Origin: Kiritimatiellia bacterium | GTDB lineage: Bacteria > Verrucomicrobiota > Kiritimatiellia > RFP12 > UBA1067 | NCBI GenBank assembly: GCA_017650345.1 | Contig: JAGCFB010000065.1 | Span: 1 to 33,776, forward strand | Direction: 5' to 3' | DNA length: 33,776 nt | Shown here: positions 11,011-32,768 of the stretch, in pieces | Numbering within the stretch: position 1 is the stretch's first letter | Layout of the letters: every line of letters begins with the position of its first letter | Translations under genes and position numbers: made by a program | Notes under the pieces: model-generated | The model's database searches: none | Told to the model about the DNA's origin: nothing | What the model saw: only the letters and a program-made list of their open reading frames with translations

Positions 11011-11368
11011 ATGACGATCGCATACGCATGTGACATGAACTACGCCGCGTTGACGGCCATCAGCGCCGTGTCGGCTTCCCTTCAGCGAGGACGAGTATCT
11101 TGACGGACGGCGCAACGCCGCGATATACCACTTCTCAGGGCATACGCTGGGTCGTCCGTGGTTCACCAGCTCGCGGCACCCGCTGCGCAGCCGGTACTTG
11201 AAGGCCGCCCGCGCCGCAGGACTGGAGGACGCCGCCATGCAGACGCGTCCGATGGCGACGGACTACATGGCGCAGTATCTGCTGTGGCGGTTCCTGCCCC
11301 AGCCCCTTTTCGACACGGTCTGCCGCTGGATGTACCGCCTCCACATCCGCCGCTGCTACGGCGTCTGA
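11011..11368 (+). pseudogene. Family-8 glycosyltransferase remnant with a large internal deletion and frameshift
   Basis: The ATG at 11011 opens a frame reading MTIAYACDMNYAALTAISAVS, a typical GT8 N-terminus (nucleotide-sugar binding strand), which then meets a stop at 11101. A second frame from about 11069 reads RLPFSEDEYLDGRRNAAIY, then HFSGHTLGRPWF, and continues to a stop at 11366-11368 with YLKAARAAGL and FDTVCRWMYRLHIRRCYG. The H-x-x-G-x-x-x-P-W block is the GT8 C-terminal signature. Intact GT8 enzymes are ~300 residues; here about 25 N-terminal and 95 C-terminal residues survive, so roughly 170-180 codons that include the DxD motif are gone. Base composition is GC-rich like the surrounding chromosome, not like the following island. 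Confidence 0.72.
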
Positions 11369-11520
11369 CCTTTTATCATATATCGTCAGACCTTTTCTAG
11401 CAAAAGGTCTGATCTTTTTCAGTAAAAGGTCTGATCTTTTTGATCAAATCGTCAGACCTTTTCTAGTAAATCGTCAGACCTTTTACATCGTATCGTCAGA
11501 CCTTATCTCAGAACAGTCCA
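11367..11520 (+). repeat. Tandem array, seven units of exactly 22 bp
   Basis: Units start at 11367, 11389, 11411, 11433, 11455, 11477 and 11499, a constant 22-base step. Each starts GAYCTTTT (the last is GACCTTAT), then has eight variable bases, and ends either TCGTCA or AAGGTCT (the last unit ends differently). The variable parts are ATCATATA, CTAGCAAA, TCAGTAAA, TGATCAAA, CTAGTAAA and ACATCGTA in units 1 to 6. Two boundaries (2/3 and 3/4) read AAAAGGTCTGATCTTTT, a near palindrome that is partly the reverse complement of the others, so perfect 11-base inverted pairs arise (TCAGACCTTTT / AAAAGGTCTGA). The first unit overlaps the TGA of the GT8 remnant. A step of 22 is not a multiple of three, so this is not coding. 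One pair (11386-11412) is followed by TCTTTTT and could act as a terminator. Confidence 0.85.
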
Positions 11521-18864: not shown

Positions 18865-18930
18865 AATTCCGTTTTTCAGGGAGATGAATTCCGCTTTCTC
18901 GGCCTGTGAATTCCGGTTTTTCTGGAGTCG
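18865..18930 (+). repeat. Short tandem array, three units of exactly 22 bp
   Basis: AATTCCG starts at 18865, 18887 and 18909, an exact 22-base step. Each unit continues with a T-rich run (GTTTTTC, then CTTTCTC and GTTTTTC) and a variable tail (AGGGAGATG, GGCCTGTG, TGGAGTCG). A weak fourth unit, ATGTCCG, begins at 18931 in register and merges into the REP-like hairpin. The period equals that of the unrelated-sequence array at 11367-11520. Confidence 0.7.
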
Positions 18931-18979
18931 ATGTCCGAACACAGTTCGGACATCAAATCTGGAATGGACATCAAGTCTG
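18930..18979 (+). repeat. REP-like hairpin plus an 18-bp direct repeat downstream of the RAYT gene
   Basis: GATGTCCGAAC (18930-18940) and GTTCGGACATC (18944-18954) form a perfect 11-base stem with the 3-base loop ACA. From 18944 two 18-base units follow: GTTCGGACATCAAATCTG and GAATGGACATCAAGTCTG. The first differs in a single base from GTTCGGCCATCAAATCTG inside the transposase gene (19778-19795, opposite strand). The element ends 16 bases from the RAYT stop codon, the place expected for a REP of a REP-RAYT pair. Confidence 0.75.
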
Positions 18980-18995
18980 AGGCGGGAGACGCATC

Positions 18996-20168
18996 TCATG
19001 CGTCGCTTCTTGCAATAACCTGCGGGCCGTTGACCTTCCAGTAGAGCGCGAGGCCCTCGCCAGCCGTGGCAATCTCGACAATCTCGGCGTTGAGATCGAG
19101 GCAGGCGCGGCGGCCAAACTCGGTCTCGTCGCTGCCACGCGCGATCTCAAGGTAGCGATCCTCAGCAAACGGCTCGACATAACGACTCTCCGGCCTGAAG
19201 CGCCTGTTGGGAATACACGACGGCAAAATACGGATGAAACGTGCGTCTCCCCGTCGACACAGCATGTCACGCACCGCTTGCTCTCCCTTCGAAATAAAGC
19301 CGCTTATGATCACATAGCCCTTCTCGACCGCGCTCTCCATGCGCCTCACGACCCGGGCGATAGCCTCGGGCGTTGCGACTTCGCGAGAAACCCGAAGCGA
19401 GACAAGCTTTTCATCGGTAGAGAGAAGCGCAATGTTGCCAACCCCCTTCCAATAGTCGCCAATGTCGAGCCGCGGCGAGGAAAGCGGCTCCACTACGCGC
19501 AGGGCGCCGCCCTCGCAATACATAAGCTCCCATTTCATCGGGTTGTAGGCGATGTAGCGCTCGGTCGAGTCGATCATCGAGCGAGAGAGAAGAATGTAGT
19601 CGTGGTAGCCTTGCTGCCAGATGGTGGTTGGTTGGCCAAACGCAGTTTGGCCATCAAAGCTTGTTTTGCCGTCGAATATAGTTTGGCCATCAAAGCTTGT
19701 TTGGGCAACAAAGCTAGTTTGGCCGTCGAATATATCGCGACCATCAAGCCTATTGCTGTCGCGCGACCCAGCTGCCACAGATTTGATGGCCGAACTGCGT
19801 TCGGCCAATCCCAAACTACGCTTGGCCAGAGCTGTGGTATAGTTCTTGAATCGCCTTATCGCCCCGCCAAGCACTTTAAGCGGCTCATCAAGCCCAGGCG
19901 CGAGCGCGCAGTTAAAATGAATGTGATCGGGCATAACGACCCAGCCGAAGAGCCTAAACCCAGGGTTTAGCCGAGGTATCGCTTGCAGCGCCTCGGCAAC
20001 TTTCTCCCCAAACGGGGCAAGAGCCACACTGCCGCCCTGTATCGAGCCGAAAAGCGGCCGTCTCGGCGCTGTCGCCATCGTAATGAAGAGCGAAGCGCCT
20101 TTCGCGTAGTTCCAGCCCGTGAATCGCCGGTATCGCCTTATCTCGCGGCTCTCTGCCCTGACTGCCAT
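18996..20168 (-). CDS. REP-associated tyrosine transposase (Y1/HUH family), long form with repeat insertion and extra C-terminal domain
   Basis: The 390-residue protein begins with a Y1 transposase domain: RRYRRFTGWNYAKGASLFIT, then FGWVVMPDHIHFN with the HUH pair His82-His84. After an insertion come IWQQGYHDYILLSRSMIDST and ERYIAYNPMKWEL. By alignment to E. coli TnpA-REP the nucleophile is probably Tyr205 in RYIAYNP. Such enzymes cut and join single-stranded DNA at REP hairpins. Residues ~118-182 are an insertion made largely of six-residue repeats (S/I-F-D-G-Q/K-T) encoded by REP-like DNA. Residues ~240-390 form an extra domain (NIALLSTDEKLVSLRVSREV, GYVIISGFISKGEQAVRDML, FGRRACLDLNAEIVEIA) with a Rossmann-like look, possibly related to DprA/SLOG proteins; this is a weak assignment. 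Usual RAYTs are 150-230 residues. It starts 1 base after the HipA-like stop. Confidence 0.83.
   Translation of the reverse strand: MAVRAESREIRRYRRFTGWNYAKGASLFITMATAPRRPLFGSIQGGSVALAPFGEKVAEALQAIPRLNPGFRLFGWVVMPDHIHFNCALAPGLDEPLKVLGGAIRRFKNYTTALAKRSLGLAERSSAIKSVAAGSRDSNRLDGRDIFDGQTSFVAQTSFDGQTIFDGKTSFDGQTAFGQPTTIWQQGYHDYILLSRSMIDSTERYIAYNPMKWELMYCEGGALRVVEPLSSPRLDIGDYWKGVGNIALLSTDEKLVSLRVSREVATPEAIARVVRRMESAVEKGYVIISGFISKGEQAVRDMLCRRGDARFIRILPSCIPNRRFRPESRYVEPFAEDRYLEIARGSDETEFGRRACLDLNAEIVEIATAGEGLALYWKVNGPQVIARSDA
19633..19807 (-). repeat. REP-like repeat cluster inside the transposase gene (18-bp units and two hairpins)
   Basis: On the + strand 18-base units start at 19645, 19663, 19681, 19699, 19717 and 19735 without a gap. 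Those at 19645 and 19681 are identical (GTTTGGCCATCAAAGCTT); the others differ at several positions, and the one at 19735 is the most diverged. Just before the run, TGGCCAAAC (19633-19641), GCA and GTTTGGCCA form a hairpin with a 9-base stem. At 19787-19807 TGGCCGAAC, TGC and GTTCGGCCA form a second one, and the 18-base unit there lies in the opposite orientation (19778-19795). Because 18 is a multiple of three the run stays in frame and encodes six-residue repeats. Confidence 0.82.
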
Positions 20169-20169
20169 A

Positions 20170-21048
20170 TCACCTCACAACTCCTCCAAACAGAGCCTCG
20201 TACCTTGCCGCGAGATATGTCTTGTAGAACTGGCGCTGGAGGGCGGTCATGAGCGGCGTGCCGTCGATGAAGGCGTTGATCGCCGCGAGATCGATGCGCG
20301 GGACTATGCGCGCGAGCGATGGGGCGAGAACGCCGTCGCGGTTCTGCGCAATGAAATCGACATAGCCGATCTTCTTTCCGTTCTGCTTGAGCGCCGAAGC
20401 GGGGAAGCTGTATATGCGCGCGTCGAGCTCCGCCTTGTCGTCTATGACGCGGCGCATAATGTCGTCGTCCGCTTGCGGCAGGAGACAGCTGCCGAAGTCG
20501 TACGCGGGGGCGATCTCCGCCTTGCGCGTCACTGGATCGACGAGGAATCCCCAGTTGCCGTTATGCCGGTCGAAGTTGCCGAGGAACGCATCTACGACAA
20601 ACATGTCCCAGAAATGCGCCTTTAGCTCGACCGGATCGACGAAGGACTGAAGCTCTATCGTCTCAAGCACGTCGTCAAGCTCTGTTCCCGTCCCGTTCGT
20701 CTCGGAGTCTATAACCGTGTTCTTGATGGAGCAGAAATCGTAGAGCTGCCCGCCGTCCGCCGTAAAGTCGCGGCACGCGCAAACCGTCTTCGTCTTGCCG
20801 TTCGTGAACGTGCCAAGTCGCGTTTCATGAGACTTGAGCCCGATCATGTTGGCGATGGTGCTGGCAACATGCTCGCAGAAGCAGCTGTTGGTGTAGGAAA
20901 GCGCCGTTGGCTTGTCCGCCGCTGACGGGGGGAACTTGACGAGCCATACCGCGCCGTCGTAGCGGACGGCTATCTTCTTTCCGTTCGCGCCGTTGTAGGC
21001 CCGGCCAGGAAGCCGCTCGCATGCGGAGAAATCGACAGGCTCGGTCAT
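20170..21048 (-). CDS. HipA-like serine/threonine kinase, probable toxin
   Basis: The 292-residue protein has the HipA C-terminal kinase features: VVDAFLGNFDRHNGNWGFLV (~151-170), with catalytic Asp160 and the following HNGN, and IAPAYDFGS (~179-187), with the metal-binding Asp184. The N-terminal part (IAVRYDGAVWLVKFPP) resembles the nucleotide-binding start of the CtkA/HipA kinases. The protein is shorter than HipA (~440 residues) and lacks its N-terminal subdomain, like the one-domain CtkA group. I chose the ATG at 21048 because it overlaps the 70-residue partner gene by 4 bases (ATGA); upstream in-frame sequence is a shadow of that gene. Its target is unknown. The transposase gene follows after 1 base, so the three genes are probably cotranscribed. 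Confidence 0.82.
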   Translation of the reverse strand: MTEPVDFSACERLPGRAYNGANGKKIAVRYDGAVWLVKFPPSAADKPTALSYTNSCFCEHVASTIANMIGLKSHETRLGTFTNGKTKTVCACRDFTADGGQLYDFCSIKNTVIDSETNGTGTELDDVLETIELQSFVDPVELKAHFWDMFVVDAFLGNFDRHNGNWGFLVDPVTRKAEIAPAYDFGSCLLPQADDDIMRRVIDDKAELDARIYSFPASALKQNGKKIGYVDFIAQNRDGVLAPSLARIVPRIDLAAINAFIDGTPLMTALQRQFYKTYLAARYEALFGGVVR

Positions 21049-21257
21049 GCGTCCTTCCCCCAGAGATACTTGTCGCGGAGATACTGCGCCTGGTCGTGGG
21101 TGATGGCGTTGTCGTTTATCTCGGCGATGTTGATCGAGCCGTAGAGCTCGCCCCAAAGGCAGTCGAGAAGATTCGACTTCTCCTCGACGCCCTTCTTCCA
21201 TGCCTCGAGGTCATGCGCCAGATACGGCGGCAGGTTTCGCTCGTACATCTCGTTCAT
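21045..21257 (-). CDS. Small partner protein of the HipA-like kinase, possible antitoxin
   Basis: The 70-residue acidic, mostly helical protein reads MNEMYERNLPPYLAHDLEAW at its start, then NLLDCLWGELYGSINIAEIN and ITHDQAQYLRDKYLW. It has no helix-turn-helix of the HipB type. Small proteins with LDCLW/LDC-type cores and an ITxEQAxYLRxKYL ending are known to me as neighbours of single-domain HipA-like kinases in gut bacteria. Function as an antitoxin is inferred only from size, order and the 4-base overlap with the kinase gene. Confidence 0.65.
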   Translation of the reverse strand: MNEMYERNLPPYLAHDLEAWKKGVEEKSNLLDCLWGELYGSINIAEINDNAITHDQAQYLRDKYLWGKDA

Positions 21258-21294: not shown

Positions 21295-21336
21295 GTCGCC
21301 TTCCTGCACCAGACGGCGTCCCTGCGCGCGGCGGCG

Positions 21337-21861
21337 CTACAGCGCGGCGGCCCTGGCGGCGGCGGACGCTATGGCGCGGCACACGGCGCGCGAGGTGATC
21401 GTCGCCGCGGTGATCGCCTCGATCTCGCCGCCGTCCTTCTTCACCATGAGCGACGTGCCGTCCTTGTCCGCGAACTGCCCCGCGAAGTCCGGCGACTTGA
21501 GATTCATCCCCAGTCCCGGCGTCTCGCTCGCGGCGAGCGTCTTGTACGCGACGACGGTCCTCCTGTCCGCCCTGAAGCCGACCATCAGCACGATCTCGCC
21601 GCCGTATCCGTTCGCGTCCTCGCCGCGCACGGCGTAGCCGAGGACCTGCCCGGACGCGTCGAGCCCCAGGAACGCGCCCTCGCCGGACGCCTCCACCCTC
21701 TCCACGCCGGACGGCATTACGTCCGCCGCCGCGCGCAGCGTGTTGGCGGTCTTGGACCTCTCGATCGGATCGCGCGTGATGCCGTCGATGTACGCGAGCA
21801 CGCCCGCGCAAGCCGCCGATATCGCCGTAAGGCTCGCCACAAGCCATATTGCCTTCTTCAT
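21337..21861 (-). CDS. RnfG/NqrC-like FMN-binding domain protein
   Basis: The 174-residue protein has an N-terminal membrane anchor (KAIWLVASLTAISAACAGVL), then an FMN-binding domain with TLAASETPGLGMNLKSPDFAG and GGEIEAITAATITSRAV. This is the RnfG pattern, in which the last Thr of S/D-G-A-T-x-T carries covalently bound FMN; here Thr156 would be the acceptor. Position 153, normally Gly-Ala in GAT, reads AAT, so flavin attachment could be altered. No other rnf or nqr gene is nearby, so it is either an orphan electron carrier or part of a split cluster. AGGAGG lies before the ATG and an extended -10 is 50 bases upstream. Confidence 0.8.
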   Translation of the reverse strand: MKKAIWLVASLTAISAACAGVLAYIDGITRDPIERSKTANTLRAAADVMPSGVERVEASGEGAFLGLDASGQVLGYAVRGEDANGYGGEIVLMVGFRADRRTVVAYKTLAASETPGLGMNLKSPDFAGQFADKDGTSLMVKKDGGEIEAITAATITSRAVCRAIASAAARAAAL

Positions 21862-24065: not shown

Positions 24066-24647
24066 TCAGAAGCCGACGTTCACGAGCGGGCAGAACTGGA
24101 TCTCCGCGCAGCGGATGACGTTGACGATGCCGACCTGGAGGCCGTACATCTCCTCGGCGCGATTGATGAGGCCGACCTGGACGCCCTCGATGACGCCGGC
24201 CGTGTTGATGACGCCGACCTGCGCGCCGCGGAGGGAGCCGGCCTCGTTCCAGATGCCGACCTGGCCGCCGATCATGTCGGCCTGCGACACGGTGTTGTAG
24301 ATGCCGCACTGGATGCCGGCCATGGAGTCCTTGACGTGGTTCCTGAGAAGGCTGCACATGAAGCCCTCGAAGTGCTGCGCGCGGCCCCAGAGGCCGATGT
24401 CGAATCCCGTGACGCTCTCGTGCTTGACGGAGAACGGAACCGTCACGCGCAGGCCGACGACGTCGGGAGTCCTGTCGGCCGAGGGAATCTCGGAGACGAC
24501 GAGGAACGCGGGCCATACGGCGACGTCCTTCTGCTGCGTCTCGACGACGAGCTGGTTGTCGAAAACGTCGTCACCGGCGTCATCGTCGTCCGCGAAGGCG
24601 GGAACGGCAAGGGCTGCGACAATGGCGAAAGCTAGCAACTTCTTCAT
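24066..24647 (-). CDS. Exported protein with 14-residue GxQxGxxN repeats (LA_2272-like)
   Basis: The 193-residue protein has a signal peptide (MKKLLAFAIVAALAVPAFA, cleavage after ~19), an acidic start (DDDDAGDD) and a repeat region. The repeats are GIQCGIYN (111), GGQVGIWN (127), GAQVGVIN (141), GVQVGLIN (155) and GLQVGIVN (169), with a 14-residue step after the first; GFDIGLWG (81) and GFMCSLL (95) are probable diverged copies. This matches the LA_2272-type surface repeat family and suggests a beta-solenoid or beta-barrel-like fold in the periplasm or outer membrane. Function is unknown. TATAAT (24676-24681 reversed) and AGAGGAG precede the ATG. Confidence 0.8.
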   Translation of the reverse strand: MKKLLAFAIVAALAVPAFADDDDAGDDVFDNQLVVETQQKDVAVWPAFLVVSEIPSADRTPDVVGLRVTVPFSVKHESVTGFDIGLWGRAQHFEGFMCSLLRNHVKDSMAGIQCGIYNTVSQADMIGGQVGIWNEAGSLRGAQVGVINTAGVIEGVQVGLINRAEEMYGLQVGIVNVIRCAEIQFCPLVNVGF

Positions 24648-30839: not shown

Positions 30840-32768
30840 TCAGCGTCCGAGCGCGAACTCCACGACCGCCATCGAGTGGGGCTCGAGGGACACGGAGAGC
30901 GTGTCGGCGCAGCTCTTTGCGTCGCCGATCTTCGCGCCGTGCGAATAGACGACCTTCTTTGAGGTCACCTTCGCGCCCGAGGCGGTCTCGGGGAGGTCAA
31001 GGATGCGAGAAAGCCTGTCCGAGAAGTCCAGCTTGGCGTCCGCCGAATTCCTGACGACGACGATCCCCTTGCCGGCGCCCGCGCTCGCGTAGCCGTAGAT
31101 CGCGCCGCGTCCGCCCTCGCCGACGGGGTCGCCGCCGAACCAGTGGACGTCGCGCAGCGCGCCCTCGTTCGCCTTGAGCCACTTCACGCCGTCCGCCAGG
31201 ATGTCCCACCAGCCCGGGTGCATCTGGTCGGGCGAGATGTAGTATTCCTGGAGGCCCGTTCCGCAGCCGACGCCCATCCACACCTCGTCCGCGAAGTCCT
31301 GCGTCGATTGCGGAGTGTCGGAGCGGTCCATGCATCCGGGCGGACCGTGCCTGCTGACGATGATGCCGTGCATCATCATGGAGTTGAGCGGGAAGAGCGG
31401 ACACGGAACGACGAAGCGGTCGTGTATCTTGTTGTCGCGGTAGGTGAGCCACCTCTGCCTGTCGCTGCCGGTCCCGGCCCTGTCGAAGTCGTCGCCGCCG
31501 CGCCAGATGGAGTCCGCGAACATCACCCAGAACGGCGAGGCCCACGTTCCGACGGTGCAGTTGACGAACACGTCCTGCTTGGCGCGGCGCATTTCGCCGA
31601 GGAGGCGGACGATCGCGTCCATCTCCGGCGCGTGCTTGACGTCGCACCCGTCCGCGTCGTGTCCGTTGCCCATGCGGTCGAACTTGAAGATGTTCATGTC
31701 GTAGCGCCTGATCATGTCGATGACCCTGTCGCGGAAAGCCGCGTAGTAGGTGGGGTTCGCCATGCGGAGGAGGGACTCGTTCTGTCCGATGTAGCCCTTG
31801 GATCGGGAGTACGCCACGCGCGCCGCCTGGCTGCCGCCGTAGCCGCCGCACGGACTCATCCAGCATCCGATCGACGCGCCCTTGTCGCGGTGCGCCTCCT
31901 CGGCGAGCTTGTCGAAGCCGTTGGGGAAGCCGGGATGGAAGTCCCAGAGCGAGTTCCACTCGTCCCATCCGTCGTCCCAGAGGTAGGACTCGATGAACAC
32001 GCCGCGCTTGCCCATCTCGGAGCGGAACGCCTTCATGACGCCGAGCGCCTCGGCCTCGTTCATGCGCTTCTGCCACGGACCGTCGTTGCGTCCGATGTTG
32101 ATGTCGTACCAGCTGTTGTAGTGCGGCAGGACGCGGTACGGGTGCGCGCGCTCGGCGTTGAGGTAGGACTGGAAGTCGCGGCGCGGTGAGTCGCCCTTGT
32201 AGCGTCCGACGACGTAAGAGAAGGTCCACTCCTCGCCAGGGCGCATCGCGAAGCCGCGCGGCAGGTGCGCCGTCACGGCGCCGCCGTCAACCGTCAGCTT
32301 GGCCATGGGATGCTCGACGCCGGCGAAGACCTTGCTGGACGGGAACACCGCCACCGAGCCGTCCGTGTTGCCGCTGCGGACGCCGTCACGCGATTCGCCG
32401 GGCGTCCAGTCGCGCAGGAAGCTGACGTCGTCGATCGTCACGGGCTCCTTGCCGACGTTCTTCAGGGACAGCACGACGCGCTTGTAGCGCCCCTTCACGC
32501 CAAGGACGACCGAGCACTTCGCCTCGAGCCCGCCTTCGCGCACGGTCTGGAAGTCCTGCACCTTGCGCTTGACGCGCTCGGACAGCCGGGCCGCCTTCGG
32601 GTTCGCCGCGAGCTCGCCGTTCGTCGCAAGCCCGGACGTCGGCACCGAAAGCTCCGTCCCGCCCGCCTTGACCAGCACGGGCTGCATGGACATCCCCTTC
32701 TCCGCCTCCGCAAACGCCGACAAGGCGAACGCAAGCGCTGCGATCGCGGCGAACCTAACCCTATTCAT
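30840..32768 (-). CDS. Secreted clan GH-D glycosidase (GH36/GH27-like, alpha-galactosidase-type)
   Basis: The 642-residue protein has a signal peptide (MNRVRFAAIAALAFALSAFA, cleavage near 20), a beta-sandwich domain (~25-195), a TIM-barrel domain (~210-540) and a C-terminal beta domain. Clan GH-D features: YNSWYDI (~217-223), YLWDDGWDEWNSLWDFHPGF (~262-281), IGCWMSPCGGYG, NIFKFDRMGNG with the likely nucleophile Asp364, and MFADSIWRGGDDFD, in which Asp419 is a candidate acid/base. Related enzymes hydrolyse alpha-galactosides or alpha-N-acetylgalactosaminides; which of these applies cannot be told. I chose the ATG at 32768 because it gives the signal peptide and has AAAGGAG upstream; an in-frame ATG 11 codons earlier lacks support. 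Confidence 0.8.
   Translation of the reverse strand: MNRVRFAAIAALAFALSAFAEAEKGMSMQPVLVKAGGTELSVPTSGLATNGELAANPKAARLSERVKRKVQDFQTVREGGLEAKCSVVLGVKGRYKRVVLSLKNVGKEPVTIDDVSFLRDWTPGESRDGVRSGNTDGSVAVFPSSKVFAGVEHPMAKLTVDGGAVTAHLPRGFAMRPGEEWTFSYVVGRYKGDSPRRDFQSYLNAERAHPYRVLPHYNSWYDINIGRNDGPWQKRMNEAEALGVMKAFRSEMGKRGVFIESYLWDDGWDEWNSLWDFHPGFPNGFDKLAEEAHRDKGASIGCWMSPCGGYGGSQAARVAYSRSKGYIGQNESLLRMANPTYYAAFRDRVIDMIRRYDMNIFKFDRMGNGHDADGCDVKHAPEMDAIVRLLGEMRRAKQDVFVNCTVGTWASPFWVMFADSIWRGGDDFDRAGTGSDRQRWLTYRDNKIHDRFVVPCPLFPLNSMMMHGIIVSRHGPPGCMDRSDTPQSTQDFADEVWMGVGCGTGLQEYYISPDQMHPGWWDILADGVKWLKANEGALRDVHWFGGDPVGEGGRGAIYGYASAGAGKGIVVVRNSADAKLDFSDRLSRILDLPETASGAKVTSKKVVYSHGAKIGDAKSCADTLSVSLEPHSMAVVEFALGR

Follow-up and report, generated by a model that had tools for sequence, protein, structure and literature searches.

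REPs that lie in frame inside genes are a known phenomenon. Within tnpAREP genes, REPs placed in frame between the HuH and Y motifs have been reported as a unique feature of subclass 2.4 (PMC6006769), and in-frame REPs have been reported in many genes, most of them in Opitutus terrae (Verrucomicrobia) (PMC3733652). The REPIN model takes insertion into a gene as destroying that gene (PMC8049555), and known TnpAREP/REP pairs have a CT cleavage site (PMC8266576). The family described here, in which a RAYT gene carries REP elements within its own reading frame, is a variant of this phenomenon. The window, that is, the whole 33,776-nt stretch that was analyzed, comes from a 1.44-Mb metagenome assembly that is ~65% complete, and all sequence data used in the analysis were metagenome assemblies. 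Its relevant features, in window coordinates, are as follows.

18930–18961, plus strand: REP element D with an 11-bp stem, shortly past the stop codon (covariance model R1, 41.5 bits)
18962–18979, plus strand: extra copy of a half-element tail, GGACATCAAGTCTG at 18966–18979 (repeat family D2)
18996–20168, minus strand: gene for a RAYT/TnpAREP-like HUH tyrosine transposase (open frame, 390 aa)
19539–19556, minus strand: YIAYNP motif with predicted catalytic Tyr205 (Y205 and N209 invariant in 29 homologues)
19596–19619, minus strand: WQQGYHDY block (W184–Y191), directly after the loop (W184, G187, Y188 and D190 invariant in 29 homologues)
19620–19832, minus strand: in-frame REP-bearing loop, residues 113–183 (~70), between the HUH motif and WQQGYHDY
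19631–19662, plus strand: REP element B, inverted relative to A, gene-strand reading SFDGQTAFGQ (covariance model R1, 43.8 bits; covariation)
19645–19752, no strand assigned: tandem 18-nt units, read as half-elements (tail plus one stem arm), six units of six codons each (repeat searches)
19778–19809, minus strand: REP element A, hairpin then tail ATCAAATCTG, in frame as LAERSSAIKS (covariance model R1, 47.8 bits; covariation)
19917–19934, minus strand: HUH motif MPDHIH (H82, H84; columns invariant in 29 homologues)

Judged by its motifs, profile matches and predicted fold, the 390-aa product is a REP-associated tyrosine transposase (RAYT/TnpAREP), as the first-pass annotation had proposed. 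The family profile matched ISDra2 TnpA (2xm3, E = 1.1e-5), with Tyr205 aligned to YIES of that protein, the catalytic position. NCBIfam REP_Tyr_transpos (NF047646) matched the family at E = 4e-13, split into two stretches, with a score of 49.5 bits that is below the curated 80-bit cut-off, and searches of Pfam and PHROGs with the transposase at 0.001 returned no family. Top Foldseek matches of the predicted model were ISDra2/IS608 TnpA (IS200/IS605), and E. coli RAYT 4er8 was also matched; with a pLDDT of 53.9 overall and 75–90 in the catalytic core, the model was used as a coarse guide only. Close homologues in named relatives were labeled Kiritimatiellae, Verrucomicrobia or Lentisphaerae, several of them from rumen. 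The C-terminal part of the protein (18996–19536) consists of ~180 conserved residues past the catalytic Tyr and contains an SGFISKGE motif; fold hints for this region were very weak and only to SLOG/DprA-like proteins (8zva, 2iz5). A HipA_C-domain gene lies directly upstream of the transposase gene on the same strand (20170–21201).

The six 18-base units, the inverted copy, the two in-gene hairpins and the downstream copy with its 11-base hairpin that the first-pass annotation had described were all present base for base, and the stretch from the HUH motif to WQQGYHDY contains the REP-like DNA in frame. The units start at 19645, 19663, 19681, 19699, 19717 and 19735 (Tandem Repeats Finder score 143); the exact unit GTTTGGCCATCAAAGCTT is present twice, the remaining units being variants, and the inverted copy is at 19778–19795. 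The perfect in-gene hairpins are TGGCCAAAC-GCA-GTTTGGCCA at 19633–19653 and TGGCCGAAC-TGC-GTTCGGCCA at 19787–19807. Downstream of the gene, the hairpin GATGTCCGAAC-ACA-GTTCGGACATC at 18930–18954 has an 11-bp stem, and GTTCGGACATCAAATCTG (18944–18961) is one base off the inverted in-gene copy. Two perfect hairpins with 9-bp stems and 3-nt loops occur in the transposase gene, compared with a mean of 0.004 in 500 codon shuffles, and are thus far beyond chance; the loop strand of the gene folds with z = -5.7. Elements A and B are an inverted pair close together, which is the arrangement of a REPIN. The earlier description of in-gene REP-like repeats stands. The six 18-nt units are, from their composition, better read as half-elements multiplied within the loop than as six separate REP insertions. 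Structure prediction gave the insertion as a low-confidence loop (pLDDT ~25–45 at residues 121–190, mostly <50 over 122–198), which is predicted to be disordered.

An Rfam search of the window gave no match, and a weak covariance-model hit at 31985–32016 (13.9 bits) was dropped after inspection. The window has other repeats too. At 11362–11508, a different short repeat (CGTCAGACCTTTT / AAAAGGTCTGA) forms an array in both orientations; the exact 13-mer occurs three times there and also on two other contigs of the genome (C23 and C95; reversed control zero). Imperfect tandem repeats lie at 21314–21380 (31 nt) and 24163–24243 (42 nt).

The locus is like TnpAREP subclass 2.4 (RAYT group 4) in having in-frame REPs between HuH and Y, a variable peripheral loop and flanking REPs (PMC6006769). 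Subclass 2.4 has the motifs NH[IFV]H and YIxNNP and lacks a conserved C-terminal extension, its REPs carry a GT[AG]G foot, and its insertion lies between beta3 and alphaC (PMC6006769), whereas the present transposase has DHIH and YIAYNP, its family has ~180 conserved residues after Tyr205, the element is without that foot, and the insertion in the present model follows helix 96–118, taken as alphaC by our own mapping on the predicted model, and precedes W184. Because the motifs and the extension differ and the canonical REP foot is absent, the family was filed as a variant and not as a member of the subclass. The element is also like the intragenic GTAG/CGTC REPs (PMC3733652), which are short palindromes in frame in unrelated genes including uvrA and tRNA synthetases, but it lacks the GTAG tag; those REPs are mostly intergenic, whereas most of the copies examined here are in coding-like frames, where one codon phase dominates. 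The Rickettsia palindromic elements (RPE-1, RPE-4, RPE-6) are likewise palindromes in frame in many unrelated genes (PMC10969869, PMC3733652). RPE-1-type elements are longer (~150 bp) than the present element, and no transposase is tied to RPEs in PMC10969869 and PMC3733652, whereas here the RAYT itself carries the element. As with REPINs/BIMEs and their RAYTs (PMC8049555, PMC8266576), an inverted hairpin pair lies near a RAYT and RAYT-positive genomes are richer in copies; unlike in those systems, the pair is within the RAYT reading frame. The near-invariant CT of the element recalls the CT cleavage site of TnpAREP/REP pairs (PMC8266576). The first-pass annotation had regarded REPs inside a RAYT gene as unusual; they are indeed present, but the arrangement is known for subclass 2.4 (PMC6006769) and the element is found in many unrelated genes as well.

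Loop hairpins were found at the same position in ~16 homologues, with counterparts of the loop REPs in three other genera of the family. The interval from RRFKNYTT to WQQGYHDY is 8–12 residues in several homologues without REPs and 28–113 residues in those with REPs; short-loop homologues include L024, L026, L050, L051 and L053. In the long form, a hairpin and tail (element A) come first and an inverted copy of that element (B) comes last, while the spacers between A and B vary freely among homologues, the spacer in the window being filled with the 18-nt putative half-elements. Both A and B are present in 15 genes, and the loop of L022 has element B alone. The tree placed 15 loop-bearing rows together (96/97 support) and L022 elsewhere, which requires at least two changes. 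Further REP copies lie within the C-terminal codons in L040, L041 and L042 and straddle the stop in L045 and L046, the window counterpart being 18930–18961. In genome G005, the same unusual CGCGAAC stem is present in both loop hairpins and in the downstream hairpin; clear copies of this variant in that genome were found only in or just after the gene, and matches elsewhere were at control level. Four short-loop RAYTs (L030, L032, L050 and L051) have different peptide repeats, also in frame, close to the N or C terminus.

Standard pairs occupied 93.5% of pair cells in 34 elements, and both-side stem changes were found in 38 cells compared with 10.0 in shuffles, 0 of 500 of which reached 38. Since dispersed variants might replace one another, the covariation analysis was repeated at orthologous positions. 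Both-side changes numbered 22 at A sites alone (5.5 in shuffles) and 10 at B sites alone (2.6 in shuffles), with 0 of 2000 shuffles in each case. Over nine tail positions, A and B were identical at 7.13 within a gene and at 5.67 between genes (p < 1e-4), and the two tails code for different peptides. Because the stems covary and the A tail and B tail of one gene change in concert, it is the DNA structure that is kept and not the peptide alone. Selection on the hairpins and concerted replacement would both explain the covariation and the tail co-change. According to the first-pass annotation, absence of the unit from the rest of the genome, together with homologues that all share the loop with unrelated DNA sequence, would have pointed to chance or codon repetition; the alignment instead gave hairpins kept at the same loop position with covarying stems.

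The same annotation had proposed a search of the host genome, and the element is present elsewhere in it. Covariance-model sites numbered 9 in that genome (window included), 35 in G009, 25 in G050 and 16 in G022, with zero sites in every genome for the reversed-pattern control, and the element was found in 48 of 115 genomes and 7 of 19 genera of the family. REP matches were present in all 15 genomes with a loop RAYT and in 16 of 46 others (Fisher p = 6e-6), an association that is partly circular since loop matches were counted as REP presence. Copies are also found in some genomes that lack a loop RAYT. In the logo of 109 dispersed copies, a GG[AT]T foot is followed by a 9-bp stem and TC[AT]NN[AG]CT, in which the 3′ CT is near-invariant; the canonical GT[AG]G REP foot is absent. 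Dispersed REPs showed no strong match to the loop REPs of their own genome, being slightly closer to these than to the loop REPs found in other genomes (p = 0.013 for the tail and p = 0.21 for the stem). At one locus (L195, G023 C6:1–4400), a single contig bears three REP clusters that are close to one another and contain inverted pairs, which suggests local duplications of the RAYT region.

Coding-like open frames, defined as open for ~180 nt to either side and scoring as coding-like on each flank, held 73 of the 109 dispersed copies. A single codon phase was used in 61 of these 73 (p ~3e-14 against 2/5), many of the host-gene counts being orthologous across genomes and not independent; in G009 alone, 17 of 19 inserts were in one phase (p = 1e-5). 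Because coding density is high in such genomes, location in a gene is by itself no enrichment, and the phase bias is the informative part. Pfam domains were found in 18 of the 20 host frames scanned. Host genes include those for valyl-, leucyl- and methionyl-tRNA synthetases, UvrA, DXP synthase and chorismate synthase, among others. With in-frame copies in many unrelated genes across related genomes, the element does not target the transposase gene alone. The valyl-tRNA synthetase (ValRS) of the host genome itself carries the element. In ValRS it fills a loop for which most genomes of the genus have a shorter, unrelated sequence, and it looks degenerate in several genomes. In ValRS of G051 and G042 (L168 and L173), the same loop contains another in-frame repeat, CTTTCAACCTTTCAA (peptide PFNLSTFQPFNLS), and the REP is absent there. 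Inserts were always open and a multiple of three in length, for which reason simple translation is preferred over a bypass by the ribosome or an intein-like excision of the loop.

The explanation that we consider likely is that the RAYT has its REP substrate as part of its own coding sequence, that the elements were spread by the RAYT and that the pair is kept as a linked substrate. An inverted REP pair (REPIN) would occupy a surface loop, following the helix after the HUH strand and preceding the W-Q-Q-G-Y strand, and would be translated in frame as LAERSSAIKS...FDGQTAFGQ, with more copies at or beyond the 3′ end. The RAYT would bind and cleave the single-stranded hairpins, probably close to the near-invariant 3′ CT, and copy them to new sites, and copies landing in frame in surface loops would survive. 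The pair in the RAYT gene may be kept as an enzyme-linked substrate through selection or ongoing gene conversion. The 18-nt array may have arisen later by slippage of half-elements and would be harmless, since each unit of 18 nt adds exactly six codons. Self-cutting by the enzyme or a regulatory role of the insertion, as suggested in the first-pass annotation, is conceivable.

Chance or codon repetition was ruled out as the source of the resemblance by the codon shuffles, the extragenic copies and the covariation. For the same reasons it is very improbable that the loop is a repeat peptide kept at the protein level, with the DNA resemblance a by-product of its codons: other short peptide repeats do occur in the loop spacers of L049/G005 and L054/G038, but copies of the element are found both beyond the gene and at other places in the genome, perfect hairpins are practically absent from codon shuffles, and the stems covary. 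Regulation of the transposase by hairpins in its mRNA or DNA, through translation pausing, mRNA stability or copy-number-limiting self-nicking, would fit the strong structure of the loop strand (z = -5.7), the conserved pairing and the additional hairpins at the 3′ end; the dispersed copies in tRNA synthetases and repair genes speak against a transposase-specific switch and make this reading unlikely.

It is more conceivable, if still doubtful, that the loop REPs are passive selfish insertions, tolerated in a disordered loop, passed on by descent and serving no function for the transposase. The presence of the element in frame in many unrelated genes, the grouping of loop-bearing RAYTs in essentially one clade and the degenerate look of the ValRS element in several genomes are consistent with this. 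Passive passengers would be expected to decay, yet the RAYT hairpins stay paired through both-side changes and the A and B tails co-change, although repeated gene conversion from dispersed copies could mimic selection of this kind.

The explanation in which the RAYT gene contains its own REP substrate may be taken a step further, in a tentative form that may well not hold in full: a RAYT lineage would have become fused with its REPIN substrate, the two co-evolving, and would drive a REP family adapted to reading frames, with one phase and a benign loop peptide. If true, recombination could not separate the RAYT enzyme from the REPIN substrate, and the system would be a RAYT-driven counterpart of the Rickettsia palindromic elements. 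The family described here runs counter to the modeling assumption that REPIN insertion destroys a gene (PMC8049555). How palindromic elements such as RPEs and intragenic REPs enter and persist in protein genes is a long-standing question; here, an in-frame, single-phase palindrome is linked to a RAYT that has the same palindrome in its own gene, with its pairing kept.
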